Shown: positions 1,487 to 40,078 of the stretch, piece after piece
Position numbering within the stretch: position 1 is the stretch's first letter
Layout of the letters: every line of letters starts with the position of its first letter
Assembly: GCA_029251865.1 (NCBI GenBank)
Contig: JAQXCN010000056.1
Coordinates: forward strand, 1 to 49,485
Length of the DNA stretch: 49,485 bases
Source: Crocinitomicaceae bacterium
GTDB lineage: Bacteria > Bacteroidota > Bacteroidia > Flavobacteriales_D > Crocinitomicaceae
Direction of reading: 5' to 3'
Translations under genes and position numbers: made by a program
The notes under the pieces: generated by a model
Told to the model about the DNA's origin: nothing
Seen by the model: the letters and a program-made list of their open reading frames with translations, nothing else
Databases searched by the model: none

Positions 1487-1786
1487 CTTGGGCCTATTTT
1501 TGAGCGTTATTCTATAGGTGATTAAAGCCGGAAAGCCAATCAGAAAACAAGCAGCGAGCGCATAGCCTCTTGCGGTTAAATAAAAGTCAGAAAAAAACTC
1601 CATATCAGGGTCATATCCCCAAGGAGTAAATGAATACAAGCTTAAAGGACCTTCTATTATTACACCTGTTTCTTTTACTACATACTCGCCAGGAAATAAA
1701 TTTAGTGGTACCAGAAGTAAAAGCAGTAATACAGCTAAAAAGCAACATAAAAACATCCAAAAAGGTTTCTTCAAAGCGATTTTCAT
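1481..1786 (-). CDS. Small membrane protein of unknown function
   Basis: 101 residues from the ATG at 1786; the open frame continues upstream to a TTG at 1816, but the ATG is the more likely start. Two hydrophobic segments are visible: an N-terminal one (FWMFLCCFLAVLLLLLLVPL, about residues 9-28) and a second near the C-terminus (YALAACFLIGFPALI), with a polar loop of about 45 residues between them, probably extracytoplasmic. I recognise no family. The gene is divergent from the sensor kinase at 1820 with only about 33 bases between starts, and convergent with the SDR gene. Confidence 0.6.
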   Translation of the reverse strand: MKIALKKPFWMFLCCFLAVLLLLLLVPLNLFPGEYVVKETGVIIEGPLSLYSFTPWGYDPDMEFFSDFYLTARGYALAACFLIGFPALITYRITLKNRPKL

Positions 1787-1819
1787 AGATTCAAAGATAA
1801 GCCTTAATTTTAGCAAAGC

Positions 1820-3355
1820 ATGTCAAACGCAGCAAACGGATTACATATTAATAAACAACGTTGGAAAATATTCCTTGCGTTCATGGTCCTCATTGTTATT
1901 GCAGTTTCGTTATTTCTTTCTAATAATTTTCTCTCGAAGCTTGGTGATAAGGAACAGTCAAAGGCTACACAATGGGTAGAGGCCATTAAGAAGAAAGGGG
2001 CTTTAGTTCAGCTCAGTAATGACATTTTTTCAGAGCTCAAAAAAAAAGAACGTCAAAAAATAAACGTCGTCGTTGAGGCGCAAAAAGTATTACTTCAAAA
2101 GTCCGATCTTTCTAAAAGTCAAGACGTAGAATTTTCTCTGTCGATAATTCAGTCAAATACTGACATTCCTGTAGTGCTTCTTACCGAGGAGAATGGGATC
2201 ATGCAGTATAGAAATATGGAAAGCATATTTGGAAATACTGCAGATGAGGCAAGAAAAGATTCCATCTGTATAGAAAGTGCAAAAGAATGGAAAGCTGCGG
2301 GTCAATTTCAACTTATAGAATATTTAGACGGAGAGTTCCTTCAGTTTATATTTGGATCGTCATTTGAGCTTGGTCGTCTCCAGAACGAAAGTGAACGGCT
2401 GATTGCTTCTTTTAATGAAGAAATAAAGGATAACAAAGCACTTATACCCGTAATGCTTTGGGATGTTTCAACTGATTCTCTTGAAGCAACAAATATTAAT
2501 GTAGGTGCAAAACAAAGCCGTGATCTGAGAGGAGATTGGGCACAAAATAATCCTCCGCTGATATTTGATTTCGGGTCGGGTCAGAAAAGGTTATACTTTT
2601 CCGAGAGTGAGGAGCTTTATTATTTAAAGTGGATTCCAACATTTCAGGTGCTTATTTTGGGCTTGTTGATCCTTGTTGGGTATTTTATTTTCTCGACATA
2701 CCGAAAGGCGGAACAAAAAAGAGTTTGGGCCGGTATGGCCAAAGAAACTGCTCATCAGCTTGGAACACCTTTGTCCTCTTTGATGGGCTGGCAAGCACAC
2801 CTTGAACATCTTAAAGTTGACCCTATGGTTACCCAAGAGATGAAGAAAGATCTTGTGCGTCTTGAAAGAATAACGGATCGTTTTTCAAAAATCGGTTCTG
2901 AGTCCAAGCTTGAAGAAAAAAATATTGTAGCAACCATTCAAAACAATCTAGAGTATTTGGAAGCTCGTCTTTCAAAGAAGGTCGAGCTCATTTTTGAGTC
3001 AAAAGTATCCCCTGATTTATCTGTTTTACACAACGCTGCTTTAATGGATTGGGTAGTAGAAAATTTATGTAAGAATGCGGTGGACGCGATGCAAGGTGTC
3101 GGCAGATTAGAGATTTCTTTGGTCGCTCAAAAGTCTACTGTAGATATAGATTTTAAAGACTCTGGGAAAGGGATTCCCTCATCAAATCAAAAAGCGATTT
3201 TTGAGCCAGGGTTTTCGACGAAAAAGAGGGGTTGGGGTCTAGGTTTGGCTTTAGTAAAACGAATTATAGAGGAACATCATTCGGGAAAAGTTTACGTGGC
3301 GGAATCAAAGCTTGGCGAGGGTACAACCTTCAGAATTACTTTGCCGGTTCGTTGA
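1820..3355 (+). CDS. Sensor histidine kinase (orphan in this window)
   Basis: 511 residues. Membrane segments at about 17-35 and 274-292 bracket a roughly 240-residue periplasmic sensor region with no family I recognise. There is no clear HAMP. The H-box is ETAHQLGTPLSS with phospho-acceptor H312. The ATPase domain has an N-box (ENLCKNAVDAM, 414-424), G1 (DSGKGIP, 447-453), an F-box-like FEPGFST and G2 (GWGLGL, 471-476), and ends ITLPVR, so it is a complete HATPase_c domain. The H-box with QLG in place of the usual E-x-K/R recurs in Bacteroidota kinases, from memory. No response regulator gene lies beside it, so its partner must be elsewhere. The 3' end overlaps the convergent flavoprotein gene by 20 bases. 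Confidence 0.9.
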   Translation: MSNAANGLHINKQRWKIFLAFMVLIVIAVSLFLSNNFLSKLGDKEQSKATQWVEAIKKKGALVQLSNDIFSELKKKERQKINVVVEAQKVLLQKSDLSKSQDVEFSLSIIQSNTDIPVVLLTEENGIMQYRNMESIFGNTADEARKDSICIESAKEWKAAGQFQLIEYLDGEFLQFIFGSSFELGRLQNESERLIASFNEEIKDNKALIPVMLWDVSTDSLEATNINVGAKQSRDLRGDWAQNNPPLIFDFGSGQKRLYFSESEELYYLKWIPTFQVLILGLLILVGYFIFSTYRKAEQKRVWAGMAKETAHQLGTPLSSLMGWQAHLEHLKVDPMVTQEMKKDLVRLERITDRFSKIGSESKLEEKNIVATIQNNLEYLEARLSKKVELIFESKVSPDLSVLHNAALMDWVVENLCKNAVDAMQGVGRLEISLVAQKSTVDIDFKDSGKGIPSSNQKAIFEPGFSTKKRGWGLGLALVKRIIEEHHSGKVYVAESKLGEGTTFRITLPVR

Positions 3356-4304
3356 AATCTGACTTAAGCCTATCAATTACTTCGCTTACGCTCAAAATCT
3401 CTTTCACATATTCGATCGATGGACCTGCACACCAAACCGTTTTATAGGTGGTAGAAAAAGCCGCTTTTTGCAAACTTTTCATTCCTCTCATGAAGGTCAG
3501 CGCCTTGAACCACTTTTTAAGCTTTTTGTTTTTATTTAAAAAGGTCTCTAAAAAATTCTGTGAGGTACCGATTTTACTGACATAAGGTGTATTAATAACG
3601 GTGCATGGTGTTCCCGAAAGTTTTGTTGTGAGTACAATGTCTTTCGCACCATATTGAACACATGCGTCTTTATATCCCTGTGATACTGGCGCTTCTTTTG
3701 TTGCAATAAAGATGCTACCCATAGATACACCATCTGCACCTAGGTCAAGCATTTCTTTTATTCCGTGCCCGTCTCCAATACCTCCTGCCGATATTACTGG
3801 AATCTTACATTCTTTTTTGAGGGCTGGAATGAGTTCAGAAAAAGGAGTCGGCCCTGCATGACCACCTGCCTCTTTATTGACAGCTATGATTGCATCAGCT
3901 CCAAGTTCTTCAACCTTTCTTGCATATTTTGCATCAACAACATCACAGAAAACTTTTACGCCATATTGCTTTGACATAGCGATCGTTTCCGCCGGAGAAC
4001 CTAAAGATGTTATGAAATATGATATGCCTTCCTCACAACAGGCTTTGAGTTGTTCTCTATATAAAAAGTTCGATTTATTGACAATTAAGTTGATTCCGAA
4101 TGGTCCATCAGTGGCTTTTTTAATGCGTCTGATTGCCTCCCGCAGTTCATCAACGGTTCTGTAGTTTAGCGCCGGGATAGCACCGGTTATACCATTTTTT
4201 ATGGCCTCAATAATCATCTCCTCATTTGACACCAAAAACATAGGGGCCATAATAACGGGAAACTCAATATTTAACATTTCACTTAAAGAAGCTTTTTTTG
4301 TCAT
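3336..4304 (-). CDS. Nitronate monooxygenase / FabK-like FMN enzyme
   Basis: 322 residues of the 2-nitropropane dioxygenase/nitronate monooxygenase superfamily, an FMN-binding TIM barrel. Visible motifs are FPVIMAPM (15-22) at strand 1, NKEAGGHAG (143-151) with the candidate catalytic His149, the phosphate-binding ISAGGIGDG (171-179) and GVSMGSIFIA (192-201). The family includes nitronate monooxygenases, which detoxify propionate-3-nitronate, and the enoyl-ACP reductase FabK; sequence alone does not decide between them. It is cytoplasmic with no signal peptide. The ATG at 4304 is preceded on its own strand by TATTTTTG, 20 bases upstream, a plausible -7 element. It stands alone, divergent from the carboxypeptidase gene. 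Confidence 0.85.
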   Translation of the reverse strand: MTKKASLSEMLNIEFPVIMAPMFLVSNEEMIIEAIKNGITGAIPALNYRTVDELREAIRRIKKATDGPFGINLIVNKSNFLYREQLKACCEEGISYFITSLGSPAETIAMSKQYGVKVFCDVVDAKYARKVEELGADAIIAVNKEAGGHAGPTPFSELIPALKKECKIPVISAGGIGDGHGIKEMLDLGADGVSMGSIFIATKEAPVSQGYKDACVQYGAKDIVLTTKLSGTPCTVINTPYVSKIGTSQNFLETFLNKNKKLKKWFKALTFMRGMKSLQKAAFSTTYKTVWCAGPSIEYVKEILSVSEVIDRLKSDFNEPAK

Positions 4305-4324
4305 TACCTTTGTTTTCGTATTTT

Positions 4325-4332
4325 CAAAAATA
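4325..4332 (-). promoter_or_regulatory. Putative -7 element (TATTTTTG) of the nitronate monooxygenase gene
   Basis: On the minus strand this reads TATTTTTG, matching the Bacteroidota sigma -7 consensus TAnnTTTG, 20 bases before the ATG at 4304. I did not identify a convincing -33 TTG. Confidence 0.4.
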
Positions 4333-4356
4333 AGGAATTATAAAATCGTATCCTAA

Positions 4357-5406
4357 ATGAGTATTAAGCAATGGGTTTTTACCCTCTTCTTAGGTCTTCC
4401 TTTATTCGGTATAGCCCAAAAAAAGAAACTCGTCATTAAGGATTCCACGCGTTATTCTTTATCTATGATTTATGAGTCCCTAATAGACTTTTCATATGTA
4501 TATGAAGAATATGTTGAACTTTCGGTTTTAGGGTTTTCAGAGTTCGAACAATCTATCCCGCTACTTAAACTTAGTAATGCAAATGCAGAAGAGAAAAAAA
4601 ACATTCTTATTGTCGGTAATTTGCACGCAAGGGAATTTTTCAGTTCCAAGTTTGTTTTAAAATTTTGTAATGCGTTTTTGTATTCGCTTGATTCTGATAA
4701 AGGAATTTATCCATCTGCTCGTGAACTTCTCGGCAAGTATAATATTTACATTATTCCTGTTGCCAATCCTGATGGTCTAAAAATAGCACAAGAGGACTGG
4801 AAGGGGATTGAATCACACAAATCATCAATAGATTCTATAAAGCGAATAGGGCCATTTTCTGATTGGAAAGCAAATGGCAAGGGAATAGATCTTAATAATA
4901 ATTTTGATGACGGAAACTTTGAGGTCAAGCATGGTCATTTGTTTGAAGAAAAACCGGCCTCACAAGGTCATAAAGGAGCTTTTCCTTGTCAGGCGATAGA
5001 GGCCAAGATAATTCAAGACTTCGTAGACTCAATTGTCCCTCTTTTAACACTTTCTTTCCATACGAAGGGGGATGTCTTATTTTGGGCCGATAGAGGTACC
5101 CATGCTCAATTCAAAGGCTTGGATACTAAACTTAATACAGTTGTTGCTGAGACTTGTGGCTTTATATTGGCAAGAGTATCAAGAAACCCGAAAGAATATG
5201 GCGCGGGTTTAGAGAATTATATTCGTGCCAAGACCAAAAGAATTGGTGTTTGTGTTGAACTTTCAGTGCCAAATGGAACTACTGCCCAGCATCCTCCAAA
5301 TAAGTTTAATTCATTGGTTTGGCAAAAGTGTAAAAACATGCCAATTCTTTACCTTCAAGAGTTAGCGAGGTTATACCCTTCATATTCTTCTATTTTCAAA
5401 GAATAA
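4357..5406 (+). CDS. Secreted M14-family zinc carboxypeptidase
   Basis: 349 residues with an N-terminal signal peptide (hydrophobic to about residue 19, GIAQ then KKK). The M14 metal site is intact: NLHARE gives H90 and E93 (HxxE), and LSFHTKG gives the third zinc ligand H235. CVELS contributes E301 as the likely general base. ANPDG (136-140) and GIDLNNNF (176-183) are the usual substrate-site strands of the family. It probably hydrolyses C-terminal residues of peptides, or muropeptides, outside the inner membrane; specificity cannot be read. There is no T9SS sorting domain, so a periplasmic location is likely. It precedes pnuC by 74 bases. Confidence 0.9.
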   Translation: MSIKQWVFTLFLGLPLFGIAQKKKLVIKDSTRYSLSMIYESLIDFSYVYEEYVELSVLGFSEFEQSIPLLKLSNANAEEKKNILIVGNLHAREFFSSKFVLKFCNAFLYSLDSDKGIYPSARELLGKYNIYIIPVANPDGLKIAQEDWKGIESHKSSIDSIKRIGPFSDWKANGKGIDLNNNFDDGNFEVKHGHLFEEKPASQGHKGAFPCQAIEAKIIQDFVDSIVPLLTLSFHTKGDVLFWADRGTHAQFKGLDTKLNTVVAETCGFILARVSRNPKEYGAGLENYIRAKTKRIGVCVELSVPNGTTAQHPPNKFNSLVWQKCKNMPILYLQELARLYPSYSSIFKE

Positions 5407-8856: not shown

Positions 8857-9734
8857 AAACGGTATTAATAACCATACTATTAATTTTAGGGAGCTTTGTC
8901 AGTATTGCTCAAAGACGTAATAAACCAAAGCCGAAAAAGTCTTTCAATGCGGGGGCTATTTTTGTACAGTGGGGTTATAATCGAGATTTTTATACCAAAA
9001 GCGATATTAACTTTAGAGGTACAGGTTATGATTTTACACTTCAGGATTGCGAGGCGGTTGACAGACCTGAGCCTTTCAGCGTAGAAAACTACTTCAACAT
9101 CAAAAATATTACTATACCTCAATTCAACTTACGAATTGGATATATGATTAAGCGAAACTGGGCAATATCACTAGGATATGACCATTTGAAATATGTTCTT
9201 AGAGACAATGTTCCTTATACTTTATCAGGAACGATAAATCCGGGTGTCGATCTAGAAACAAATTGGTCTGGAACATACATTAATGAACCAGTTATCACAC
9301 AGGAAGCTACTTTTCATTATGAAAACAGTAATGGTTTGAATTATATCCGTGCTGAGGTTTCAAGAGTTGATCAATGGTATAGAGAGAGGAATTCGGCCTG
9401 GTTCGCATTTTCAACGCTATTTGGTGCCGGTGCGGGTGCAATTTTATCTATTAATGACTTTACTTTTGCGGGTAGAAAATCTGTCTTTACGCCATCCTTG
9501 TCGGGAATGGCTATTTCTTTACATGCGGATGCCAGGTTAGAGTTTTTCAGACATTTTTATATCCAGCCTGGAATAGGATCCGGGTTTATGCTTCAAAACA
9601 ATGTCAGAACGAGACCAGAAGATTATAATTCTGTTGCAAGCCAGTCCTTTGGATATTTAGAAGCCCATGTGCTTGTCGGCTGGTTATTTTATCTAAAACC
9701 GATTAACGCGTGCGATGCATGCCCTCAATGGTAA
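8853..9734 (+). CDS. Outer-membrane beta-barrel-like protein
   Basis: 293 residues from the ATG at 8853, which overlaps the previous stop (ATGA); an earlier ATG at 8832 would put polar residues before the signal peptide and is less likely. The signal peptide is MKTVLITILLILGSFVSIAQ. The mature protein has alternating aromatic and polar strands (NLRIGYMIKRNWAISLGYDH, RLEFFRHFYIQPGIGSGF) typical of porin-like barrels and ends oddly in NACDACPQW, with a CxxC pair. Specific function is unknown. Its stop overlaps the pth start by one base (TAATG). Confidence 0.75.
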   Translation: MKTVLITILLILGSFVSIAQRRNKPKPKKSFNAGAIFVQWGYNRDFYTKSDINFRGTGYDFTLQDCEAVDRPEPFSVENYFNIKNITIPQFNLRIGYMIKRNWAISLGYDHLKYVLRDNVPYTLSGTINPGVDLETNWSGTYINEPVITQEATFHYENSNGLNYIRAEVSRVDQWYRERNSAWFAFSTLFGAGAGAILSINDFTFAGRKSVFTPSLSGMAISLHADARLEFFRHFYIQPGIGSGFMLQNNVRTRPEDYNSVASQSFGYLEAHVLVGWLFYLKPINACDACPQW

Positions 9735-10297
9735 TGAAGTATTTGATTGTAGGTCTTGGAAATCCTGGTATTAAGTATGCGCAAACACGTCATAATATTG
9801 GGTTTGACATTCTTGACGAATTGGTTAAAGGTTCAGGAACATCATTTAATACTGAGCGTCATGCTGATTGCGCAGAAATAAAATTTAAAGGACGTAAATT
9901 GGTTTTAATTAAACCAAATACCTTTATGAATCTCTCCGGAAAAGCAGTTCAATACTGGTTACAAAAAGAAAAAATAGCAGTTTCCAATTTACTTGTAATT
10001 AATGACGACTTAGCACTTCCTTTTGGAACCTTGCGTCTAAAAGGAAAGGGATCTGCAGGAGGACATAACGGATTAAAGGATATTGAAGCCGCGCTTAAAA
10101 CGAGTTTATATAGCCGTTTAAGATTTGGTATTGGAAGCGATTATGCTCGAGGAAGGCAAGCAGATTTTGTATTAGGACCCTGGTCAAAGCAAGAACAATT
10201 AGCCCTCCCTGAACGTATTACTCAAGCAACACGATTTATTGAATCTTTTACTACTTCAGGTTTAAATATGACGATGTCTGCGCTTAACGGGAAGTAA
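9734..10297 (+). CDS. pth: Peptidyl-tRNA hydrolase
   Basis: 187 residues from the ATG at 9734, the start that gives the canonical MKYLIVGLGNPG. Catalytic and substrate residues are in place: N10, H20 (QTRHNIGF), N66 (PNTFMN), the D91-D92 pair (INDDLALP) and N112 (GGHNGLK). It cleaves peptidyl-tRNA released from stalled ribosomes, freeing tRNA in the cytosol. Length is normal for bacterial Pth. It is the last gene of a four-gene overlapping run. Confidence 0.97.
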   Translation: MKYLIVGLGNPGIKYAQTRHNIGFDILDELVKGSGTSFNTERHADCAEIKFKGRKLVLIKPNTFMNLSGKAVQYWLQKEKIAVSNLLVINDDLALPFGTLRLKGKGSAGGHNGLKDIEAALKTSLYSRLRFGIGSDYARGRQADFVLGPWSKQEQLALPERITQATRFIESFTTSGLNMTMSALNGK

Positions 10298-13146: not shown

Positions 13147-14592
13147 ATGGCGAGAATAAGAATTTCTGAATTGCTCAAAGATGGAGCAAAGTTTTTAGGA
13201 CAGAAAATAGAGGTTAAAGGTTGGGTTCGTGCATTTCGAAGTAAGCGTTTTGTGCAGCTTAATGACGGCTCATGCATGTCAAATATTCAGGGGGTCCTTG
13301 ATTATGATAATTTTGATGAGGAACAACTTAAGGCGATAAGCACAGGAGCCGCGGTTTGCTTGAAAGGAATACTTATAGAATCTCAAGGTTCGGGTCAGGT
13401 TGTCGAGCTTCAGGTCGAATCATTTGATATAATTGGAAGTGCAGATCCAGAAGCTGTGCAGAAAACGATTCTTCAGCCTAAAAAACACAGCCTTGACTTA
13501 TTGCGAGAACAAGCGCACCTTAGGTTTAGAACCAACACCTTTGGTGCAGTATTTAGAATAAGGCATGCGGCATCTTTTGCTATCCATCAATTTTTTAATG
13601 ACCGTGGATTTAATTATATCCATACACCTATTCTAACGGGTTCAGATGCAGAGGGCGCAGGTGAAATGTTTCGGGTAAGTACGCTTGATCCTAAAAACCC
13701 GCCGCTTGATGAGGATGGAGATGTTGATTATGGCAAAGATTTTTTTGGAAAACAGGTGAACCTCACGGTTTCAGGACAACTTGAAGCGGAGCTTGCAGCG
13801 CTTGGTTTGGGTCAGGTTTATACCTTTGGCCCAACATTCAGAGCCGAAAATTCAAACACCTCTAGACACTTGGCTGAATTTTGGATGATTGAACCGGAGG
13901 TAGCATTTAATGACCTTGTCGACAATATGGATTTAACGGAAGAATTCTTACAGTCTGTATGTGGTTACATCTTAGAAAATTGTGCAGAAGATTTAACTTT
14001 TTTAGACAAACGCTACGGTCAAGAACAAAGTCAAAAGCCACAAAATGAAAGAAGTCATTTAGGGCTCTTGGAAAGCATTAAGTTTGTCGTAGATAATAAA
14101 TTTAAACGTTTGAGCTACACGGAGGCCATAGATGTTCTAAGGAATTCTAAGGCGTATAAAAAGAAAAAATTCCAATTTCCCGTTGAATGGGGTATAGATT
14201 TACAGAGTGAACATGAACGTTATTTGGTAGAAAAGGAATTTAAATGTCCTGTAATATTGAGTGATTACCCAGCGGATATCAAAGCGTTTTATATGCGACA
14301 AAATGATGATGGAAAAACCGTTGCTGCTATGGACGTATTATTTCCAGGCGTTGGAGAAATCGTCGGTGGTTCTCAAAGAGAAGAGCGTTTAGAAGTTTTA
14401 CGCTCGAAGTGTAAAGACTTTGACATAGAAGAAGAAGAGCTTTGGTGGTATATGGATACACGTAAGTTTGGTTCTGTGCCTCATGCAGGCTTTGGAATGG
14501 GCTTTGAACGTCTGATAATGTTTTTGACAGGAATGTCTAACATTCGCGATGTAATTCCATTTCCAAGGACCCCAGACAACGCAGAATTCTAG
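13147..14592 (+). CDS. asnS: Asparaginyl-tRNA synthetase
   Basis: 481 residues. An OB-fold anticodon-binding domain (about 1-105; KVEVKGWVR and GSCMSNIQGVL are typical) precedes a class II catalytic core. Motif 2 is FRAENSNTSRHLAEFWMIEPE-like and motif 3 is HAGFGMGFERL near the C-terminus. PILTGSDAEGAGEMF is the asparaginyl-type start of the core. It charges tRNA-Asn in the cytosol. A TAnnTTTG box abuts the ATG. Length is usual for Bacteroidota AsnRS. Confidence 0.97.
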   Translation: MARIRISELLKDGAKFLGQKIEVKGWVRAFRSKRFVQLNDGSCMSNIQGVLDYDNFDEEQLKAISTGAAVCLKGILIESQGSGQVVELQVESFDIIGSADPEAVQKTILQPKKHSLDLLREQAHLRFRTNTFGAVFRIRHAASFAIHQFFNDRGFNYIHTPILTGSDAEGAGEMFRVSTLDPKNPPLDEDGDVDYGKDFFGKQVNLTVSGQLEAELAALGLGQVYTFGPTFRAENSNTSRHLAEFWMIEPEVAFNDLVDNMDLTEEFLQSVCGYILENCAEDLTFLDKRYGQEQSQKPQNERSHLGLLESIKFVVDNKFKRLSYTEAIDVLRNSKAYKKKKFQFPVEWGIDLQSEHERYLVEKEFKCPVILSDYPADIKAFYMRQNDDGKTVAAMDVLFPGVGEIVGGSQREERLEVLRSKCKDFDIEEEELWWYMDTRKFGSVPHAGFGMGFERLIMFLTGMSNIRDVIPFPRTPDNAEF

Positions 14593-17328: not shown

Positions 17329-20300
17329 ATGAATAATAAATATCCTGAGTACAAAGGTTTGAATCTCCCTAATATCGCTGAAGAAATTCAAGCGCTTTGG
17401 GATGAGAAGTCAATCTTTGATGCAACTATCAATACTCGAGATGATGAAAACCCCTTTGTTTTTTTTGAGGGACCTCCTTCGGCAAATGGTATGCCTGGAA
17501 TACATCATGTAATGGGCCGCTCCATAAAAGATATTTTTTGTCGTTTTAAAACGCTGAAGGGTTTTCAAGTTAAAAGAAAGGCAGGGTGGGATACACATGG
17601 CTTACCAGTTGAACTCGGTGTTGAAAAAGAGTTAGGTATAACCAAGGAGGATATAGGTAAAAAAATAACTGTTGATGAGTATAACGAAGCTTGTAAAAAA
17701 GCGGTTATGAAGTATACAGATGTTTGGAATGACCTTACCAAAAAAATGGGTTATTGGGTCGATATGGAGGCGCCCTATGTGACCTATCACTCTAAATACA
17801 TGGAGTCTGTATGGTGGCTTATTTCTGAGCTCTATCGAAAAGACCTATTGTACAAAGGGTACACAATCCAACCCTATTCGCCTAAAGCCGGTACGGGGCT
17901 TTCTTCACATGAAATTAATCAACCGGGATGTTATAAAAATGTAAAGGATACTTCTGCAGTTGCACAATTTAAGGCAGTTAAATCCTCCAAAAACCCTTTC
18001 AGTATAGAGGGTGATCTGTATTTATTGGCGTGGACAACAACACCTTGGACCTTACCATCAAACACAGCTTTAACGGTGGGAGAAAAAATCGAATATGTTT
18101 GCGTGACAACGTTCAATCAATATACTTTCCAAAAGACAAATGTAGTGCTCGCAAAAAACCTTGTGGGTTATCAGTTTTCAAAAGGGTTTCTTGAAGCAGA
18201 AAGTATTGATGAATTAGAAACATACCAGCAAGGAGATAAGAAGATTCCATATTTTGTCGGCGAGACCTGTACGGGTAAAGATTTAATTGGTATGCGTTAC
18301 GAACAATTGCTTGACTATTGCCAGCCTTTTGAAAATCCAGAAAATGCATTTCAAGTTATTTCAGGTGATTTTGTAACCACAGAGGATGGAACAGGTATTG
18401 TACATACGGCGCCTACCTTTGGCGCAGATGATGCAAAAGTAGCTAAAGATGCAGGCGTGCCGCCAATGCTTGTCAAAGATGAACTTGATAATTTAGTGCC
18501 ACTTGTAGACCTTCAAGGCCGATTTAGAAAGGAAGTATATGATTTTGATGGGATGTATGTCAAAAACGAATATTATTTAGATGATCAAGCGCCTGAAAAG
18601 TCTGTAGATGTGCTTATCGCGGTTAAACTCAAGGAAGACAACAAGGCCTTTAAGGTTGAAAAATATGAGCATAGCTATCCACATTGTTGGAGAACCGATA
18701 AGCCCATATTATATTATCCTTTGGATTCATGGTTTATTAAGGTTACAGACCATAAAGAAAACATGGTAGCCCTAAACAATACTATAAATTGGAAGCCAAA
18801 ATCAACAGGAGTTGGACGTTTTGGTAAATGGCTTGAGAATGCAAATGATTGGAACTTATCTCGGTCAAGGTATTGGGGTATACCAATTCCAATATGGAGA
18901 ACGGAAGATGGTCTCGAGCAAAAATGTATGCAGTCAGTTGAACATTTGAAATCAGAATGTGATCGTGCTGTCCAGGCTGGTATTATGAAAGAGAATCCAC
19001 TTGGTGCTTTTGTGCCTGGGGATATGTCAGATGAAAATTACGATCAAATAGATTTACATAAGCATATTGTTGATACAATAGTTTTAGTTTCGGATACAGG
19101 CAAGGTAATGCATAGAGAGTCAGACTTGATGGATGTTTGGTTCGATTCAGGTTCAATGCCTTATGCGCAGTGGCACTATCCTTTTGAGAATAAGGAGAAA
19201 ATTGACAATAATACGGCATACCCTGCTGATTTTATTGCAGAGGGCGTGGATCAAACAAGAGGGTGGTTTTATACGCTTCATGCAATTTCTTCCATGGTTT
19301 TTGGAAAAGTTGCTTACAAAAATGTAGTTTCAAATGGACTTGTTTTAGATAAGAATGGTCAGAAGATGTCCAAGCGTTTAGGAAATGGGGTTGATCCTTT
19401 TGAGACGCTTAATAAATTTGGTCCGGATGCAACTAGGTGGTATATGATCACCAATGCGCAACCCTGGGATAATTTAAAGTTTGACGTTGATGGTATTGTT
19501 GAGGTACAACGCAAGTTCTTTGGTACACTTTATAATACGTACTCCTTCTTCTCATTATATGCTAATGTTGATGAATTCGATCATTCTCAAGAACAAATTT
19601 CGATTGTAGATCGTCCAGAAATTGATAGATGGGTGCTTTCTAAACTGCATTCTTTGGTTCAGAACGTTGACGAGTGTTATAGTTTATATGAGCCTACCAA
19701 AGCAGGTCGAGCCATCCAAGAATTTGTAACTGAACAGCTTTCAAATTGGTATGTTCGTCTTTGCAGAAGGCGTTTTTGGAAGAATGACAACCCACAAGAC
19801 AAAGTGGCTGCCTATCAAACCCTATACACGTGTTTAGAAACGATTTCAATTATAGCCTCGCCGATAGCCCCATTTTTTATGGATCGGTTGTATTTGGATT
19901 TAAATAAAAACAATTCGGTATTAGCTTCGGTGCACCTTGAAAATTTCCCTGCCCCCAATCAAAGTGTAATTAATACAAAGCTAGAGACTCAAATGGATTT
20001 GGCACAACGTGTTTGCTCATTGGTTCTTGGACTTCGTAAAAAAGAGAGAATTAGAGTGAGACAACCTTTACAGAAAATAATGGTGCCTGTGTTGAGTAGT
20101 GAAACTTCTGCAAACCTATCTCATGTTAGAGATTTGATTCTTTCAGAGGTAAATGTAAAAGAGCTAGAGATGATCGCGGAAGACAATGATATTTTAGTGA
20201 AGAGCATTAAGCCAAACTTTAAAACAATTGGTCCAAAGTACGGGAAGCAAATGAAAGCGATTGCTCAAGTCATTTCAAGCTGGACGTCTGCAGATATATC

Positions 20301-20721
20301 CATTTTAGAGTCCAATGGTGGTTGGAATGGAACGATCAAAGAAGATGACATTCATTTAGACATGAATGATTTTGTTATACAGACGCAAGATATTCCTGGA
20401 TGGATGGTTTCTAATGAAGATGGTTTAACCGTAGCCTTAGACATTTCTATCTCTGATGATTTAAAATCAGAGGGGATTGCTCGGGAACTTGTAAATAGAG
20501 TGCAAAATTTGAGAAAAGACAAAGGATTAGAGGTTACTGACCGAATCAATTTAACAATTGAAACAAATACCGCAATTCGGAGTGCAATTGAAACCAATAA
20601 AAGCTACATTTCAGACGAAGTATTGGCTGCGTCAATTACATTTGGTCATCATTCCAAGGAAATGCAATTGGAAACAATTGAAACCGAAAATGACCTTAGA
20701 CTTCATCTTGAGAAAAAATAG
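17329..20721 (+). CDS. ileS: Isoleucyl-tRNA synthetase, long type, with GIHH active-site signature
   Basis: 1130 residues, the length of the eukaryote-like type 2 IleRS and not the ~940 of type 1. The class I core begins FFEGPPSANGMP and is followed by GIHH (57-60), exactly where the HIGH tetrapeptide aligns; GWDTHGLPVE follows. The second signature KMSKR is at 679-683. The CP1 editing domain (WTTTPWTLPSNTA, then GDFVTTEDGTGIVHTAPTFG) is intact, so misactivated valine should be cleared. The C-terminal region lacks an evident zinc finger. It charges tRNA-Ile. The swapped G-x-H-H tetrad has been described in some type 2 enzymes as compatible with catalysis but highly resistant to mupirocin. Next gene is a biotin carrier with its own promoter. 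Confidence 0.97.
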   Translation: MNNKYPEYKGLNLPNIAEEIQALWDEKSIFDATINTRDDENPFVFFEGPPSANGMPGIHHVMGRSIKDIFCRFKTLKGFQVKRKAGWDTHGLPVELGVEKELGITKEDIGKKITVDEYNEACKKAVMKYTDVWNDLTKKMGYWVDMEAPYVTYHSKYMESVWWLISELYRKDLLYKGYTIQPYSPKAGTGLSSHEINQPGCYKNVKDTSAVAQFKAVKSSKNPFSIEGDLYLLAWTTTPWTLPSNTALTVGEKIEYVCVTTFNQYTFQKTNVVLAKNLVGYQFSKGFLEAESIDELETYQQGDKKIPYFVGETCTGKDLIGMRYEQLLDYCQPFENPENAFQVISGDFVTTEDGTGIVHTAPTFGADDAKVAKDAGVPPMLVKDELDNLVPLVDLQGRFRKEVYDFDGMYVKNEYYLDDQAPEKSVDVLIAVKLKEDNKAFKVEKYEHSYPHCWRTDKPILYYPLDSWFIKVTDHKENMVALNNTINWKPKSTGVGRFGKWLENANDWNLSRSRYWGIPIPIWRTEDGLEQKCMQSVEHLKSECDRAVQAGIMKENPLGAFVPGDMSDENYDQIDLHKHIVDTIVLVSDTGKVMHRESDLMDVWFDSGSMPYAQWHYPFENKEKIDNNTAYPADFIAEGVDQTRGWFYTLHAISSMVFGKVAYKNVVSNGLVLDKNGQKMSKRLGNGVDPFETLNKFGPDATRWYMITNAQPWDNLKFDVDGIVEVQRKFFGTLYNTYSFFSLYANVDEFDHSQEQISIVDRPEIDRWVLSKLHSLVQNVDECYSLYEPTKAGRAIQEFVTEQLSNWYVRLCRRRFWKNDNPQDKVAAYQTLYTCLETISIIASPIAPFFMDRLYLDLNKNNSVLASVHLENFPAPNQSVINTKLETQMDLAQRVCSLVLGLRKKERIRVRQPLQKIMVPVLSSETSANLSHVRDLILSEVNVKELEMIAEDNDILVKSIKPNFKTIGPKYGKQMKAIAQVISSWTSADISILESNGGWNGTIKEDDIHLDMNDFVIQTQDIPGWMVSNEDGLTVALDISISDDLKSEGIARELVNRVQNLRKDKGLEVTDRINLTIETNTAIRSAIETNKSYISDEVLAASITFGHHSKEMQLETIETENDLRLHLEKK

Positions 20722-20744: not shown

Positions 20745-21215
20745 ATGGCAAAAGACGTAAATTTTATAGTAGACGGAGTGGCAATAGAATCTCAATCGGG
20801 AGCAGAGCTTATTTGGAATGATCGTGATTTTTTCACAATCTTATATAAAGGCCAATCCTTTAATGGAGAAATTTTAAATCGTGATATTGAGAACCAAAAA
20901 TTGACACTCAAACTAAACCATCGTGAATTTGAAATCCGTAAAAAATTTGAGCTCGATGCATTAATAGCTGAGCTTGGTCTAGACAAGGTTAAGATTAAAA
21001 AGTTAAGAGAGCTTGGTTCTCCAATGCCTGGAAGAATATTAAGTATCCACGTTAAGGCAGGTGACCATGTTAAAGTTGGAGACCCCATACTTTCGCTCGA
21101 AGCTATGAAAATGGAAAACATTCTTAAGTCTGATGGTGAGGGTATTGTAAAAAGGATCGCAATAGAAAAGGAACAGGTGGTTGACAAAGGTCAACTGCTC
21201 ATCGAATTCGAGTAA
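20745..21215 (+). CDS. Biotin carboxyl carrier protein (acyl-CoA carboxylase)
   Basis: 156 residues. The C-terminal ~70 residues are a biotinyl domain: SPMPGRILSIHVKAGDHV, then EAMKM with the biotinylated K122. The N-terminal half (1-90) is a polar, beta-rich region. The protein carries CO2 on biotin between a biotin carboxylase and a carboxyltransferase. The carboxyltransferase gene at 34063 is a likely partner, because PG-x-I-x-x-I-x-V-K-x-G-D carriers of this short form belong to propionyl/methylmalonyl-type complexes in Bacteroidota; no biotin carboxylase gene is in the window. It ends one base from a convergent gene. Confidence 0.9.
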   Translation: MAKDVNFIVDGVAIESQSGAELIWNDRDFFTILYKGQSFNGEILNRDIENQKLTLKLNHREFEIRKKFELDALIAELGLDKVKIKKLRELGSPMPGRILSIHVKAGDHVKVGDPILSLEAMKMENILKSDGEGIVKRIAIEKEQVVDKGQLLIEFE

Positions 21216-23546: not shown

Positions 23547-24331
23547 TGATTGACACGCATTCACATATGTATAGCGAGCAGTTTAACGAGGATAGAGCTG
23601 CCGCAATAAATCGTTCACAACAACAAGGAATTGAATTTATTTTGTTGCCAAATATAGATGTTGATTCGATTGATGCACTTCATTCATTAGCTGATACTCA
23701 AAAAAATTGTTTGCCAATGATGGGGTTACACCCTTGTAGTGTAGATGAGAATGTGATTAAATCCCTCTCTATTATTAAGCATGAGCTCTTTAATAATCAC
23801 CGAAAATATATAGCCGTTGGGGAGATCGGAATTGATCTTTATTGGGACCGTACGCACATTGAGGCTCAAAAAAATGTTTTTAGAACTCAAATTTCTTGGG
23901 CCAAAGAGTTAGACTTACCTATTGTGATACATGCACGAGACTCGATGGGTGAAATTTTAGATATCCTCGATGAGGAGTACACATCAGAATTACGTGGGGT
24001 TTTTCATTGTTTCTCAGGAGATGATGATGACGCACGTCGCATATTGGCATACAAAACATTCTTGTTTGGAATCGGAGGAGTTGTTACTTTTAAAAACTCA
24101 AAATTACCTTTGGTCCTGAAAGAGATCCCACTGGCGAAAATCCTTTTGGAAACCGATGCTCCATATTTGGCACCGACACCTTTTAGAGGGAAACGAAACG
24201 AAAGTGCTTATCTTTCATACATTGCAGATAAACTTTCGGATGTATACGAATGTTCTGTGGATGTCATTAAAGAAGCAACATCGAAAAATGCTGAGGGTTT
24301 ATTTCAAATCTCAAAATTTGTTAATTCATGA
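23546..24331 (+). CDS. tatD: TatD-family metal-dependent DNase
   Basis: 261 residues from the ATG at 23546 (TAATG overlap), which gives the canonical MIDTHSH. Metal ligands expected for TatD are present: H5 and H7, E93 (VGEIGID), H129 (IHARD), H154 (FHCFSGD) and D204 (LETDAPYLAP). FRGKRNE follows as in the family. It is a cytosolic TIM-barrel hydrolase with 3'-5' exonuclease and possibly D-aminoacyl-tRNA deacylase activity. Its stop overlaps the asparaginase start by four bases. Confidence 0.94.
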   Translation: MIDTHSHMYSEQFNEDRAAAINRSQQQGIEFILLPNIDVDSIDALHSLADTQKNCLPMMGLHPCSVDENVIKSLSIIKHELFNNHRKYIAVGEIGIDLYWDRTHIEAQKNVFRTQISWAKELDLPIVIHARDSMGEILDILDEEYTSELRGVFHCFSGDDDDARRILAYKTFLFGIGGVVTFKNSKLPLVLKEIPLAKILLETDAPYLAPTPFRGKRNESAYLSYIADKLSDVYECSVDVIKEATSKNAEGLFQISKFVNS

Positions 24332-25350
24332 CAAAAGTATTGGTGATATACACAGGTGGCACTATAGGAATGATCAAAAATCCAGAAACAGGCTTGTTGA
24401 ACAGTTTTGATTTTAATTCCGTCTACGAACATATACCTGAACTTAACAGACTGCATACCGAGATAGATACAATGAGTGTTACGAGGCCAATCGACTCTTC
24501 TGAGATGAGCTCTGAAGATTGGATTCAAATGGCGAAGTTGATTCAAAATTCTTATGACCGATACGATGGTTTTGTGATTCTTCATGGAACGGATACCATG
24601 TCATACACTGCCTCCGCACTGAGCTTCATGATTAAAGACCTGCAAAAGCCTGTGATTCTTACTGGATCACAACTACCAATAGGTGTAATTCGAACAGATG
24701 GGAAAGAGAATTTGATTACGGCAATTGAAATTGCAGCGGCAAAAGACTCCAATGGAGAATCAATCATCCAAGAGGTAGCCGTTTATTTTGAATATTCTTT
24801 GTATCGCGGCAATAGAAGCTCTAAGGTTAGTTCTCATCAATTTGAAGCCTTTAAATCACCTAATTATCCTGAGCTAGCTATAGCAGGGGTCAATATTAAA
24901 TATAAGTGGAGTGCTTTATTTAGACCTAAACAATCAAAGCCAAGTTATAATTTTAGCTTATCCAATTCTGTTGCGCTTTTAAAAATATATCCAGGAATGG
25001 ATATAAATTTATACCGTGGACTTTTTGACGTTTCCAAAACAAAAGGGATTGTCTTAGAAACTTTTGGTTCGGGCAATGCACCATCCAATATAGAGATGCA
25101 ATCGCTAATGAAGGATTATGTTGAAGGGGGTGGGGTTATTGTAAATATTACGCAGTGCAGCTCTGGAGGAGTGAAGCAAGGAGCATATCACACAAGTTCC
25201 TTTTTTAATAAAATTGGTGTAATAAGTGGTTCAGATTTGACTGTAGAAGCAGCAATTACAAAACTCATGTTTGCATTAGGGACTGAGTCTAATTCCGATA
25301 ATATAAAAGCATTAATGGCCACGCCTATGTGTGGTGAAATGGAGCGCTGA
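24328..25350 (+). CDS. ansA: L-asparaginase, type I (cytosolic)
   Basis: 340 residues with no signal peptide, so the cytosolic type I form. The nucleophile loop YTGGTIGM places T12, and the second catalytic motif LHGTDTMSYTAS places T88 and D89. ILTGSQLPIG, SSHQFEAFKSPNYPELA-like and TQCSSGGV are further family segments. It hydrolyses asparagine to aspartate and ammonia. It ends one base before the convergent ftsE gene, leaving no space for a terminator between them. Confidence 0.94.
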   Translation: MTKVLVIYTGGTIGMIKNPETGLLNSFDFNSVYEHIPELNRLHTEIDTMSVTRPIDSSEMSSEDWIQMAKLIQNSYDRYDGFVILHGTDTMSYTASALSFMIKDLQKPVILTGSQLPIGVIRTDGKENLITAIEIAAAKDSNGESIIQEVAVYFEYSLYRGNRSSKVSSHQFEAFKSPNYPELAIAGVNIKYKWSALFRPKQSKPSYNFSLSNSVALLKIYPGMDINLYRGLFDVSKTKGIVLETFGSGNAPSNIEMQSLMKDYVEGGGVIVNITQCSSGGVKQGAYHTSSFFNKIGVISGSDLTVEAAITKLMFALGTESNSDNIKALMATPMCGEMER

Positions 25351-34062: not shown

Positions 34063-35604
34063 ATGGATAAAAATCAAGAATTACACGATAAAAGAGTTGG
34101 ATCAAAAATTGGTGGTGGCCCTGAAAGAATTGAACGTCAGCACAAACAAGGGAAGCTTAGCGCGAGAGAAAGAATTAAAGTCTTACTTGATGATTCTAGT
34201 TTTCATGAAATAGGAGGCTTTGTTGAGCATCGTGCGACAGCATTTGGATTAGACAAACAGAAGATTCCGGGGGATGGCGTAGTTTCGGGATATGGAACGA
34301 TACATGGGAGATTGGTCTATGTTTTTTCACAAGATTTCACTGTTTTAGGAGGTTCCCTTTCTGAAACACATGCCGCGAAAATTTGTAGGGTTATGGATAT
34401 GGCTATGAAAAATGGGGCTCCTTTAATTGGGCTCAATGATTCAGGAGGAGCTCGTATCCAGGAAGGTGTTGTTTCGTTAGCAGGTTATGCTGATATTTTT
34501 TACAGAAATACACGTGCATCTGGAGTTATTCCTCAATTATCCGTAATTATGGGTCCTTGTGCAGGAGGTGCTGTATATTCTCCCGCCCTAACGGATTTTA
34601 TTTTCATGGTAGAAGACACGTCGTACATGTTTGTTACCGGTCCTAATGTAGTGAAGACAGTGACGCATGAGGAGGTGAGCTCTGAAGATTTAGGAGGTGC
34701 CAAAACACACGCTGAGAAATCAGGAGTTAATCATTTTACTTCGGGAAATGATGTTGAATGTCTTAAAAGTGTGCGCGATTTAATGAGTTACCTGCCACAA
34801 AATGCGCAAGAGGAGGCTCCTTCTCCCGAGCATTTCAATTTTGATTTAAAAAAGGAAAAAAACATTGAAGAGATTCTTCCAGAAAACGCTACAATACCTT
34901 ATGACATTAGAAAAATAGTGGATTGTGTCATTGATGATGAATCTTTTCGTGAAGTCCATAAGGATTTTGCACCTAATATTGTTGTTGGTTTTGCAAGAGT
35001 TGAGGGGAGGACTATCGGTGTTGTTGCGAACCAGCCGGCCTCACTTGCTGGAGTTTTAGATATAGACTCGTCTCGAAAAGGCGCGAGATTTGTACGATTC
35101 TGTGACGCTTTTAATATACCCTTGCTTGTGTTTGAAGATGTTCCGGGCTTTTTGCCAGGGACTGATCAGGAATGGCGAGGTATTATATCCCACGGCGCCA
35201 AATTATTGTATGCTTTTTCCGAAGCAACTGTTCCAAGAATAACCGTAATTACTAGAAAAGCTTACGGTGGTGCTTTTGACGTAATGAATTCAAAAAGTAT
35301 AGGTTCTGATTTAAACTTTGCTTGGCCTACTGCAGAGATTGCTGTAATGGGAGCAAAGGGAGCCGCAGAGATTATTTTCAAAAAGGAAATTGCCAACAGT
35401 CCTGATCCACAAAAAAAATGGCTTGAGAAAGAGGCTGAGTATGCTTCATTGTTTGCTAATCCATATAGAGCAGCTGAAAGAGGTATTATTGATGAGGTTA
35501 TTTTTCCTCATGAAACGAGAAGTAGAGTGATTGCAGGATTTAAAATGCTCGAGAATAAAAATGAAACCTTACCGAATAAAAAACATGGGAATATCCCACT
35601 TTAA
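34063..35604 (+). CDS. Propionyl-CoA-type acyl-CoA carboxylase, carboxyltransferase (beta) subunit
   Basis: 513 residues with the tandem crotonase-like fold of the PccB/MmdA family. [22 protein letters not shown] is the usual N-terminal helix; oxyanion-hole segments are [10 protein letters not shown] and [13 protein letters not shown] in the N-half and [10 protein letters not shown] and [11 protein letters not shown] in the C-half. D406 in GGAFDVM corresponds to the Asp that favours propionyl-CoA over acetyl-CoA in actinobacterial PccB, so propionyl-CoA is the likely substrate. It moves CO2 from biotin to the acyl-CoA, giving methylmalonyl-CoA. The biotin carrier gene is 13 kb away at 20745; the biotin carboxylase gene is not in the window. 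Confidence 0.92.
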
Positions 35605-36600: not shown

Positions 36601-37296
36601 ATGAAACCAAGCGTAATTGTTCATGATATCGGATTGATAGATTATCAGGAGGCCTGGGATTTTCAAGAAGAACTATTTAAAGCTACAGTAGATCTGAAAA
36701 TTTCAAATCGTAAAGGTTCTACCGAGAAAAGAACATCGAATCATTTATTATTCTGTGAACACCACCATGTTTATACGCTAGGAAAAAGTGGAAAAGCATC
36801 ACATTTATTACTTAATGAAAAAGAGCTTCAAGACAAGAATGCTGTTTTTTATAAAATAAATCGAGGAGGTGATATCACCTATCATGGCCCAGGTCAGATT
36901 GTTGCTTATCCAATATTGGACCTTGAGCAATTCTTTACCGATATTCATAAGTACATGAGGTTATTGGAGGAGGCTGTCATTCGAACAATCGCAGCTTATG
37001 GTTTGAAAGGAGGAAGGATTGACGGTATGACTGGTGTATGGCTTGATGCCGGCACAACAAAAGAGCGTAAGATTTGCGCTCTAGGGGTTAAAGCCTCACG
37101 CTGGGTCACAATGCATGGTATTGGCTTTAATGTAAACACAGACTTGGATTATTTTTCAAATATTGTCCCTTGTGGAATAGAAGATAAAGCGGTAACTTCA
37201 ATGAAAAAGGAACTTGGTTCTGCGCTAAATATGGATGAAGTCAAGTCCATACTGCTTCAAGAACTCAAAGAATCTTTTGGCTTTAGTGTCTTATGA
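36601..37296 (+). CDS. lipB: Octanoyltransferase
   Basis: 231 residues. RGGDITYHGPGQIVAYPI-like core, GVKASRWVTMHG with the catalytic K164 and VPCGI with the nucleophile C191 identify LipB. It transfers the octanoyl group from octanoyl-ACP to the lipoyl domains of 2-oxoacid dehydrogenases and the glycine cleavage H protein, the first step of lipoate synthesis. The ATG follows the previous TAG by three bases, and the stop overlaps the next ATG by four (ATGA). Confidence 0.96.
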   Translation: MKPSVIVHDIGLIDYQEAWDFQEELFKATVDLKISNRKGSTEKRTSNHLLFCEHHHVYTLGKSGKASHLLLNEKELQDKNAVFYKINRGGDITYHGPGQIVAYPILDLEQFFTDIHKYMRLLEEAVIRTIAAYGLKGGRIDGMTGVWLDAGTTKERKICALGVKASRWVTMHGIGFNVNTDLDYFSNIVPCGIEDKAVTSMKKELGSALNMDEVKSILLQELKESFGFSVL

Positions 37297-38540
37297 TATT
37301 CGGATTTATGACGATAAAAAAACTATTTAAATACATAGCGTACTTTCTTCTTTCGGTGGTTTTGATTGTTAATCTATTCATCGTGCTTTCTGGCAGGTAT
37401 TATCTTTATTCTGGAATTGCGAAGACCTATTTGATTGGTAAGATGGGGCCTGGTATTTATGACTTGGATGTTTTTCCCGTGAATAAAATCTCAAAATCTA
37501 CAAGTCCTAAAAAACTTCAAGTTCGTCAGCCAAACATTAGTCTTACAAGCCAAGAGGAAAGCTATTTAAATGCGATTGATACGCGTGCATTTTTAATTTT
37601 CCAGGATGACACACTTCTTCATGAGCAATATTGGGGACCACATGCGATTAATGAGGTTTCAAATTCTTTTTCAGCTTCTAAAACAGTTATTGGTTTACTT
37701 ATAGGAATCGCTATAGAAGAGGGCAAAATTCCTAGCGTGGATGAACCTGTTAGTACTTTCATTCCGGAATTTGAAACGAATGGTCGCGCACATTTAACAA
37801 TTCGACATCTGTTAACAATGTCTGCTGGTTTTGATTGGCAAGAGAGTGGTAAAAACCCTCTTTCTGAGGCTGCAGAGGGCTATTATGGTTCAGATTTGTA
37901 TGGACTCGTCACAAGGTTGAGAATAATTGAAACACCTGGGAAAAAGTTTCATTATCAGAGTGGTAATTCACAATTATTGGGTTTCATAATTGAAAAAGCC
38001 ACAGGTCAGACACTGACGGCGTATATGCAAGAAAAAATATGGCAACCTATTGGCGCGAGTCAAGATGCCTTTTGGAGCCTTGACAAAGAGGGTGGAGATG
38101 AAAAAGCTTTTTGTTGTTTGTATGCAACAGCTCGCGATTTTGCAAGACTAGGTTTGCTTATGCTTCATAACGGAATGGTTAATGGCGTACAAATCATTTC
38201 AAGTTCGTTTTTAAGTCAGATGATTGAAACACCACGTATGGAAACCGATGATGCTGTTACGAATATGCGTTATGGTTGGCATATATGGGTTTATAAAAAC
38301 CAAAATAAACCTGTGCATTATTTCAGGGGATTAAAAGGGCAATATATAATTATATTGCCGCATTTAAATCGGGTTATCGTACGTTTAGGAGAGAAGAGGG
38401 GGGCTCATTTTAAAATGCCAAGTACTGCTTCAGATAACAAGCTGAAAATCTCCAATAATGAGGAGAAGTTAGGTCATACGATAGATTTATTTGAATATTT
38501 GAAAATTGCTGATCGTATTGTTACTGCTAGAGACATATAA
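37293..38540 (+). CDS. Serine hydrolase of the beta-lactamase/transpeptidase-like fold
   Basis: 415 residues with an N-terminal membrane anchor or signal (about 12-33). The active site is S127-x-x-K130 in FSASKTV and Y221-x-S223 in HYQSGNS; the third motif region reads GLKGQY. This arrangement is that of EstB / 6-aminohexanoate-dimer hydrolase-like serine hydrolases more than of true class C beta-lactamases (which have YxN and KTG). A second, related gene in the opposite orientation lies at 38975; both share EKAFCC followed by an A-x-D-x-A motif. Function may be esterase, peptidase or amidase. It overlaps lipB by four bases. Confidence 0.85.
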   Translation: MIFGFMTIKKLFKYIAYFLLSVVLIVNLFIVLSGRYYLYSGIAKTYLIGKMGPGIYDLDVFPVNKISKSTSPKKLQVRQPNISLTSQEESYLNAIDTRAFLIFQDDTLLHEQYWGPHAINEVSNSFSASKTVIGLLIGIAIEEGKIPSVDEPVSTFIPEFETNGRAHLTIRHLLTMSAGFDWQESGKNPLSEAAEGYYGSDLYGLVTRLRIIETPGKKFHYQSGNSQLLGFIIEKATGQTLTAYMQEKIWQPIGASQDAFWSLDKEGGDEKAFCCLYATARDFARLGLLMLHNGMVNGVQIISSSFLSQMIETPRMETDDAVTNMRYGWHIWVYKNQNKPVHYFRGLKGQYIIILPHLNRVIVRLGEKRGAHFKMPSTASDNKLKISNNEEKLGHTIDLFEYLKIADRIVTARDI

Positions 38541-38974: not shown

Positions 38975-40078
38975 TTAGAGCTGGTCTCCAATTTGTCGAA
39001 AGACATTCCACCAGTTCACGCGCTCAGCAATGAGTTTCTTCTCACGATCATTGAGTAAAACAATGATTACATTCTTTTCAGGATAAATGTAGATATGCTG
39101 TTTGTATAATCCGATGGCCATGAAGTCTTCATATTTTTTTAGTCCAATATGCCAAGAATAATTAAAGTTGAAACTACTACCATTTGTACTGTCTCTTCTT
39201 ATACTTTTATCGAACCATTCCTCACTAAAAATAGTCTTCCCATTCCATTTTCCTTTATTTAGGTATAGCCTGCCAAATTTCGCATAGTCTTGGGCCGAAG
39301 CAGTAATGCAACAAAATGCTTTCTCCATATTATTTCGATCTGACGACCACGTTGCATTTTCGCACATTTCAAGGGGTTGCCAAAGTTTTATTTCTGCATA
39401 TTCGGAGAGAGTCATGCTAACAGCTCGAGATAAAAGAATCCCGAGAAGTTGGGTGTTAATGTTAAGGTACTTTTGTTTTGACCCAGGTGCGTGTTCAAAT
39501 TGTAATTTTTTTATTTCCGCAGTACTATTTTTCCCATAGTAGATTCTTGCATCACCGGAAACGGAGTACCGAATTCCTGAGGTATGATTGAGTAAGTGGT
39601 GAATTCTTAAACTGTCTGAGAACGAGTTTTTTTTCAATTCAGGTAACCAACGCGTCACGAGGTCATTTTCACCTTTAATACTTCCTTCGTCGATGGCTAT
39701 TCCCACTAAGCAGGAGACAATTGACTTTGCGATAGAGTATGAAGGGTGCTTGATCTTTAAGTTTGAATCGTAATTTCGATAATTGAAAATCAAGCTGTCA
39801 TTTTGAATAACGAGTAGTTCACGTACTGCATGATTCAGACAGAGGCTATTTAAGTCCTCAAACTGAGGCAGATCACTTGTCCAATTGTTAACACGGATTT
39901 TTTTTTCTTGTTTTGACGTCTTAAATTGAAAACAATCTGTAGACGCATTTATGAAGTTTGAAGAAAATCTTCGGGCATCCTTATTGTCTGGCCTAGCTAA
40001 GAAAAAACTTCGGATTGGAATACATGAATTACATAAGCAAAGCATGAGAAGCAGATGTAATATGTACTTTAAATTCAT
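38975..40078 (-). CDS. Serine hydrolase of the beta-lactamase-like fold, probable lipoprotein
   Basis: 367 residues. The N-terminus is hydrophobic and cysteine-rich (MNLKYILHLLLMLCLCNSC), with a plausible though imperfect lipobox ending at C19. The active site is S115-x-x-K118 (SIAKS) and Y204-x-N206 (KYLNINTQ); the third-motif region is GLYKQH, where the Gly of the usual G-Q is Lys. It is a paralogue of the gene at 37293 (shared KAFCC, A-x-D-x-A and L-W-Q-P motifs). It is probably an esterase or peptidase acting in the periplasm. It follows the SulP gene by 22 bases on the same strand. Confidence 0.85.
   Translation of the reverse strand: MNLKYILHLLLMLCLCNSCIPIRSFFLARPDNKDARRFSSNFINASTDCFQFKTSKQEKKIRVNNWTSDLPQFEDLNSLCLNHAVRELLVIQNDSLIFNYRNYDSNLKIKHPSYSIAKSIVSCLVGIAIDEGSIKGENDLVTRWLPELKKNSFSDSLRIHHLLNHTSGIRYSVSGDARIYYGKNSTAEIKKLQFEHAPGSKQKYLNINTQLLGILLSRAVSMTLSEYAEIKLWQPLEMCENATWSSDRNNMEKAFCCITASAQDYAKFGRLYLNKGKWNGKTIFSEEWFDKSIRRDSTNGSSFNFNYSWHIGLKKYEDFMAIGLYKQHIYIYPEKNVIIVLLNDREKKLIAERVNWWNVFRQIGDQL

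Follow-up and report, generated by a model that had tools for sequence, protein, structure and literature searches.

Does the ileS gene of this bacterium encode, in place of the class I signature HIGH, a motif whose first and third residues are exchanged? If it does, is the exchange peculiar to the source organism, and what would it mean for the action of mupirocin on the cell? We addressed these questions in the window, i.e. the whole stretch of 49,485 nucleotides that was analysed (contig JAQXCN010000056.1 of a Crocinitomicaceae bacterium).

The ileS gene and its signature motif

The gene and the parts of its protein are as follows:

17329..20721, + strand: ileS, isoleucyl-tRNA synthetase (IleRS) of 1130 aa, type 2 (open reading frame; TIGR00392, PF00133, PF08264, PF19302)
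17479..17481, + strand: Ser51, opposite Tyr59 of E. coli IleRS (alignment mapping)
17497..17508, + strand: swapped class I signature motif G57-I58-H59-H60 (codons; alignments with E. coli IleRS and chain 8c8w_A)
18430..18432, + strand: Asp368 of the CP1 editing domain, opposite E. coli Asp342 (alignment column)
19174..19188, + strand: HYPFE, residues 616-620, by which the text of PMC4861432 distinguishes eukaryotic and eukaryote-like (type 2) IleRS (sequence)
19363..19377, + strand: second class I signature KMSKR, residues 679-683 (sequence)
19624..20076, + strand: anticodon-binding domain PF08264, residues 766-916 (Pfam scan)
20131..20712, + strand: C-terminal DUF5915 domain PF19302, residues 935-1128 (Pfam scan)

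The codons at 17497-17508, GGA ATA CAT CAT, share the reading frame of the ATG at 17329 and give GIHH, with EGPPSANGMP before and VMGRSIKDIFCRFKTLKGFQVKRKAGWDTHGLPVEL after it; the longer stretch enclosing the motif is EGPPSANGMPGIHHVMGRSIKDIFCRFKT. Codons and frame thus confirm GIHH at residues 57-60, where the initial annotation had placed it; the length of 1130 aa and the intact KMSKR (679-683) are also as it claimed, the frame running over 1130 codons with no internal stop. The product scores 976.3 bits with the NCBIfam equivalog model TIGR00392 (cut-off 621.4) and stays below the cut-offs of the ValRS and LeuRS models. Pfam resolves it into a class I core followed by an anticodon-binding domain, with DUF5915 at the C-terminus; IleRS types 1 and 2 are reported to have different C-terminal domains (text of PMC10485003).

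In an alignment of 37 sequences, residues P57, P58, Y59, I64, H65, I66 and G67 of the E. coli enzyme fall, at a constant offset, on residues 49, 50, 51, 56, 57, 58 and 59, and H60 is invariant. The segment MPGIHHVMGR also aligns without gap with LPGVHHALGR of 8c8w_A, the best-scoring solved chain in a phmmer search, and with LPHVGHALGR of 8c8u and 8c8v, the next chains printed. From their letters and the description given in PMC10485003, we take 8c8w, 8c8u and 8c8v to be the P. megaterium IleRS2 of that paper, in its engineered and wild-type forms. An AlphaFold model computed from 39 sequences (that of the window and 38 of the best 80 loci) had a mean pLDDT of 70.3, with 27-43 per block over residues 41-90, and is too poor at the active site, so that the placement of the signature rests on sequence alignment. 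A shifted alignment masking another HxGH is ruled out, since a scan of the whole 1130-aa protein found no H-x-G-H anywhere; GIHH is likewise its sole G-x-H-H. The alignments with E. coli IleRS and with 8c8w_A agree, and both indicate that GIHH sits at the HIGH position, as had been proposed.

Type, copy number and known relatives of the enzyme

With phmmer the protein scores 754-764 bits against 8c8w, 8c8u, 8c8v and 8c9d, 654 against 1ile, and 568 and 601 against two chains named cytoplasmic. Presumed type 2 chains as a whole score 554-764 bits versus 211-318 for the presumed type 1 chains (8c9f, 8c9e, 1ffy, 8wnf and 8wni), the type of each solved chain being our assumption and not an output of the search. 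HYPFE is present at residue 616 and Tyr59 of E. coli is replaced by Ser51. The chain scores and HYPFE support the assignment to type 2 that had been made from protein length.

The natural enzymes that the protein most resembles in its motif are the G/AXHH IleRS2 of Deinococcus radiodurans (ALHH) and Streptomyces griseus. It shares with them type 2, the exchange between the first and third HIGH positions (His at the third, Gly or Ala at the first), a retained KMSKS-type motif and a housekeeping role; it differs from them in phylum and in combining GIHH with Ser51 and KMSKR. Its best solved match is P. megaterium IleRS2 (764.3 bits over residues 18-1106, with the GVHH chain), whose natural motif is however HVGH, the GVHH form being engineered, whereas the swap is natural here. 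The type 1 enzyme of E. coli (938 aa, 26% identity) can be aligned with it over the class I core, at KMSK and at the Asp of the editing domain; that enzyme differs by its canonical HIGH and by Tyr59.

The source genome is a draft of 2,379,665 bases in 86 contigs, with a completeness of 100. A single locus exceeds the IleRS cut-off in it, by a search that was positive in 14 of 14 control genomes. The weaker loci all stay below this cut-off; one of them, located on contig 9 and ValRS-like by its motif, keeps HMGH. With E. coli IleRS as query, no type 1 match at E <= 1e-120 was obtained in 158 Bacteroidota genomes, including that of the source (five candidates scored per genome in the rows shown, 20 of the 158). 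For type 1 enzymes at about 35% identity the margin to this limit would be narrower: a Variovorax protein gave 1e-141 in another search. The single control for the same query and limit, Bacillus velezensis, returned its type 1 enzyme at 47% identity and 1.4e-260.

These data bear on whether ileS could be an acquired resistance gene of the plasmid type. Compared with MupA and MupB, the plasmid-borne mupirocin-resistance IleRS2 of staphylococci, the protein scores 769.9 bits (NF000257) and 744.8 bits (NF000258), both far below the cut-off of 1900, and it is about 37% identical to plasmid mupA. An acquired gene of this type is rejected: the protein fails both cut-offs, the genome has one IleRS, and no second IleRS stands beside a type 1 enzyme, of which no match was found at E <= 1e-120.

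Several PLSDB plasmid records, from Riemerella, Bacteroides, Parabacteroides and Acetoanaerobium, carry an ileS of the housekeeping kind. One Riemerella record has lspA and lepA beside ileS and the Acetoanaerobium record measures 2.6 Mb; such records look like chromosome pieces or mislabelled chromosomes.

Around ileS, 42 of the window's 48 ORFs that reach 100 aa were scanned with Pfam, which returned ordinary metabolic, envelope and translation genes and several proteins without a family; families of transposases, integrases or phages did not appear. The neighbours identified by Pfam include:

9710-10297: peptidyl-tRNA hydrolase, near ileS
13147-14592: class II tRNA synthetase of the D/K/N type, near ileS
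20745-21215, + strand: biotin carrier domain protein, directly downstream of ileS
24328-25350: asparaginase, near ileS
34063-35604: carboxyltransferase
37293-38540, + strand: beta-lactamase-fold (PF00144) protein, about 17 kb downstream of ileS
38975-40078, - strand: beta-lactamase-fold (PF00144) protein, near the preceding gene and on the opposite strand

In Riemerella and Prevotella (one record each) ileS is followed by a gene for a DksA-like or small protein and then by lspA; here the biotin carrier gene takes this place. The carboxyltransferase and biotin carrier genes lie 13 kb apart and may belong together to a single split acyl-CoA carboxylase.

The motif across Bacteroidota

A census of GXHH in Bacteroidota, a check set beforehand, examined 206 loci or genomes. 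The motif was found in all of the 205 readable loci—176 GIHH, 28 GVHH and 1 GMHH; the sole unreadable one belongs to the same genus as the source and its stretch stops before the motif. The census combines 30 loci (60 genomes searched, 54 with a match), the best 80 of at least 596 matching stretches, 28 new loci, 60 loci and 8 further genomes. The first three sets favour the best matches and are biased toward near relatives, and the last two were picked to fill the remaining genera. Leaving aside the second set, the census covers 98 of the 158 genomes of a phylum draw, with at least one genome for each of its 86 genera. This draw comprises same-class and same-phylum-only genomes, hence at least two classes; some species may be represented in both genome collections. 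The closest named relatives among the best 80, by IleRS identity, are a Flavobacteriales MAG (82%) and a Crocinitomicaceae MAG (81%), and a same-genus genome of the phylum draw reaches 87%. Outside the phylum, we read HIGH in E. coli, HIGH in a Paenibacillus type 2 enzyme and GIHH in an Acetoanaerobium type 2 enzyme, the latter two typed by length and similarity.

The swap thus looks fixed in Bacteroidota, and ordinary for the group: as all readable loci carry GXHH, it is neither a chance change nor peculiar to the source organism. It is probably ancestral in the phylum, and since no Bacteroidota enzyme was read without it, an early fixation is the most likely history.

Some readings in the genus of the source are irregular. 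In a 7-contig genome (match 1501-4895 of locus L010), ileS is frameshifted near codon 150 and GIHH lies in the other frame; its two pieces share 84% and 91% identity with the protein of the window, and the frameshift is probably a sequencing error. In three other genomes (G005, G014 and G029), the IleRS matches split at about query residues 218-228, with extra bases between and a single long open frame (1168-1175 aa); an in-frame insertion immediately upstream of the WTTTPWT motif would have this effect.

The draft state of the genome, in 86 contigs, would leave room for an artefact of sequencing, assembly or alignment, or for a decayed enzyme. We hold this to be extremely improbable: 205 readable relatives share the motif, the frame is open over its 1130 codons, and the ValRS-like protein of the same genome keeps HMGH. 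Moreover, as the sole IleRS found in the genome, the enzyme has to work. Chance, error and decay are rejected on the census and on the single gene copy.

We propose, with high confidence, a reading built on these sequence comparisons: ileS is the housekeeping, single-copy type 2 IleRS, with a natural GXHH signature, of a Flavobacteriales bacterium near Crocinitomicaceae; the mupirocin insensitivity of this bacterium is predicted, and the fixation of the swap is most likely an early event in the phylum.

Why the motif has been kept is a further question. With chances about evenly balanced, GXHH in Bacteroidota may be an old, functionally equivalent active-site solution kept by descent, mupirocin insensitivity being an unselected by-product. 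Its occurrence in all 205 readable loci, in at least two classes and in all 86 genera of one draw, agrees with such a history, as does the natural ALHH enzyme of D. radiodurans (DrIleRS2), reported in the text of PMC10485003 to activate its amino acid as efficiently as canonical enzymes. On the other hand, the same text infers that the earliest ancestors of IleRS mostly had HXGH and that the swap was gained at least twice, and it favours antibiotic pressure. Descent of this kind does not contradict our account of how the enzyme works.

Other active-site positions separate classes within the phylum. We compared 141 Bacteroidia sequences (of 147 loci) with 50 from other Bacteroidota classes (of 51), the rest being truncated, frameshifted or without a placeable start, and used thresholds of 97% and 90% to separate the sets. 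Five positions—51, 683, 96, 208 and 811—split Bacteroidia from the other classes, and the first two are located within a signature or next to one. Position 51 is Ser in 141/141 Bacteroidia versus Thr in 50/50 of the others. Position 683, the fifth of KMSKR, is Arg in 138 of the 141 Bacteroidia and Ser in 3; in the other classes it is Ser in 45 of 50, Thr in 4 and Arg in 1, so that KMSKR is not unique to Bacteroidia. Asp368, opposite E. coli Asp342, which we take to be the editing Asp, is Asp in all 191 sequences (141/141 and 50/50).

Tyr59 of E. coli IleRS is a residue of pre-transfer editing, and its position is occupied by Phe or Thr in the eukaryotic and eukaryote-like group, according to the text of PMC4861432; Ser51 departs from both. 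This text also reports that S. griseus IleRS lacks pre-transfer editing, and that enzyme has the same type of non-canonical motif (PMC10485003, in its text). Pre-transfer editing may by analogy be lost in the IleRS of Bacteroidia. We tentatively consider, and rather doubt, that the enzyme depends wholly on its CP1 editing domain and that drug insensitivity is a side effect of the remodelled active site, not its cause. As to KMSKR, the word occurs 16 times in the text of one Plasmodium IleRS paper.

Mupirocin and the meaning of the swap

The motif class itself is already published and common: the type 2 tree of Brkic et al. 2023 (PMC10485003) includes, as its text gives it, 86 G/AXHH and 77 HXGH enzymes among 163 IleRS2. 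Our enzyme is a member of this described kind, which is the rule in its phylum as far as sampled. The words Bacteroidetes and Bacteroidota are absent from the main text of PMC10485003, the tree and source data of which may well include them, and no word beginning with Bacteroid stands in the main text of PMC4861432. We did not find phylum-wide fixation of GXHH spelled out in the literature, judged mostly by titles and abstract openings; beyond the known motif class, it is a modest extension.

The initial annotation had attributed to type 2 enzymes with the swap full aminoacylation and resistance to millimolar mupirocin. The motif class and the millimolar resistance hold for two natural enzymes: the mupirocin Ki is 6.6 mM for ALHH DrIleRS2, falling to 8.1 uM upon exchange to HVGH (text of PMC10485003), and that of the S. 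griseus enzyme is 10 mM (text of PMC4861432). "Full aminoacylation" is too strong, as the data concern amino-acid activation and engineering to GVHH worsened kcat or KM by as much as about 10-fold (PMC10485003, same text). Exchange of the motif in either direction shifted resistance; from HXGH to GVHH, the Ki of two IleRS2 rose about 200-fold and 430-fold, to 35 uM (TtIleRS2) and 460 uM (PmIleRS2) respectively, and type 1 IleRS is reported intolerant of GXHH (text of PMC10485003). With such values for engineered GVHH enzymes, GXHH alone is no guarantee of a millimolar Ki, and the millimolar level of resistance does not extend to every enzyme of the class.

The present enzyme might then be just moderately resistant, with a Ki of tens to hundreds of micromolar. 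The 35 and 460 uM of the two engineered enzymes point in this direction, and the enzyme background matters, Bacteroidia differing at Ser51 and KMSKR. We nevertheless regard this outcome as improbable, since the natural enzymes of D. radiodurans and S. griseus stand at 6.6 and 10 mM.

By analogy with other IleRS2, we favour the following account of a strong insensitivity. In type 2 enzymes the tip of the motif-bearing helix would be shifted, so that His59 could fit the third position without pushing out the adenine of ATP, and His59 would assume the catalytic role of the absent first His. Upon binding of mupirocin the tip would shift back and the third-position His would clash with the drug, as in the model put forward in the text of PMC10485003; this clash would raise the Ki to the high micromolar or millimolar range. 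Resistance of the present enzyme is predicted on this basis, and as the GXHH enzyme is the sole IleRS found, with no type 1 detected, the source cell should be intrinsically insensitive to mupirocin.

A literature search judged by titles and abstract openings found no published mupirocin inhibition data for a Bacteroidota IleRS, and no flavobacterial selective medium with mupirocin was found. A paper on infant gut media states in general terms that mupirocin inhibits non-bifidobacterial strains, an ill fit with insensitive Bacteroidota, and describes a model in which it raised the diversity of Bacteroidaceae; both statements are too indirect to weigh on the phenotype (text of PMC13085705).

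Taken for the source genome alone, the finding is ordinary. Few features of class I synthetases are as conserved as HIGH, and for this reason a phylum seemingly all GXHH makes a useful natural panel. Such a panel could serve to understand why type 2 tolerates the swap and type 1 does not, for which the text of PMC10485003 offers no simple answer. The prediction that follows for the phylum is that Bacteroidota would be spared by mupirocin, a point relevant to selective media and to the effects of the drug on bacterial communities.
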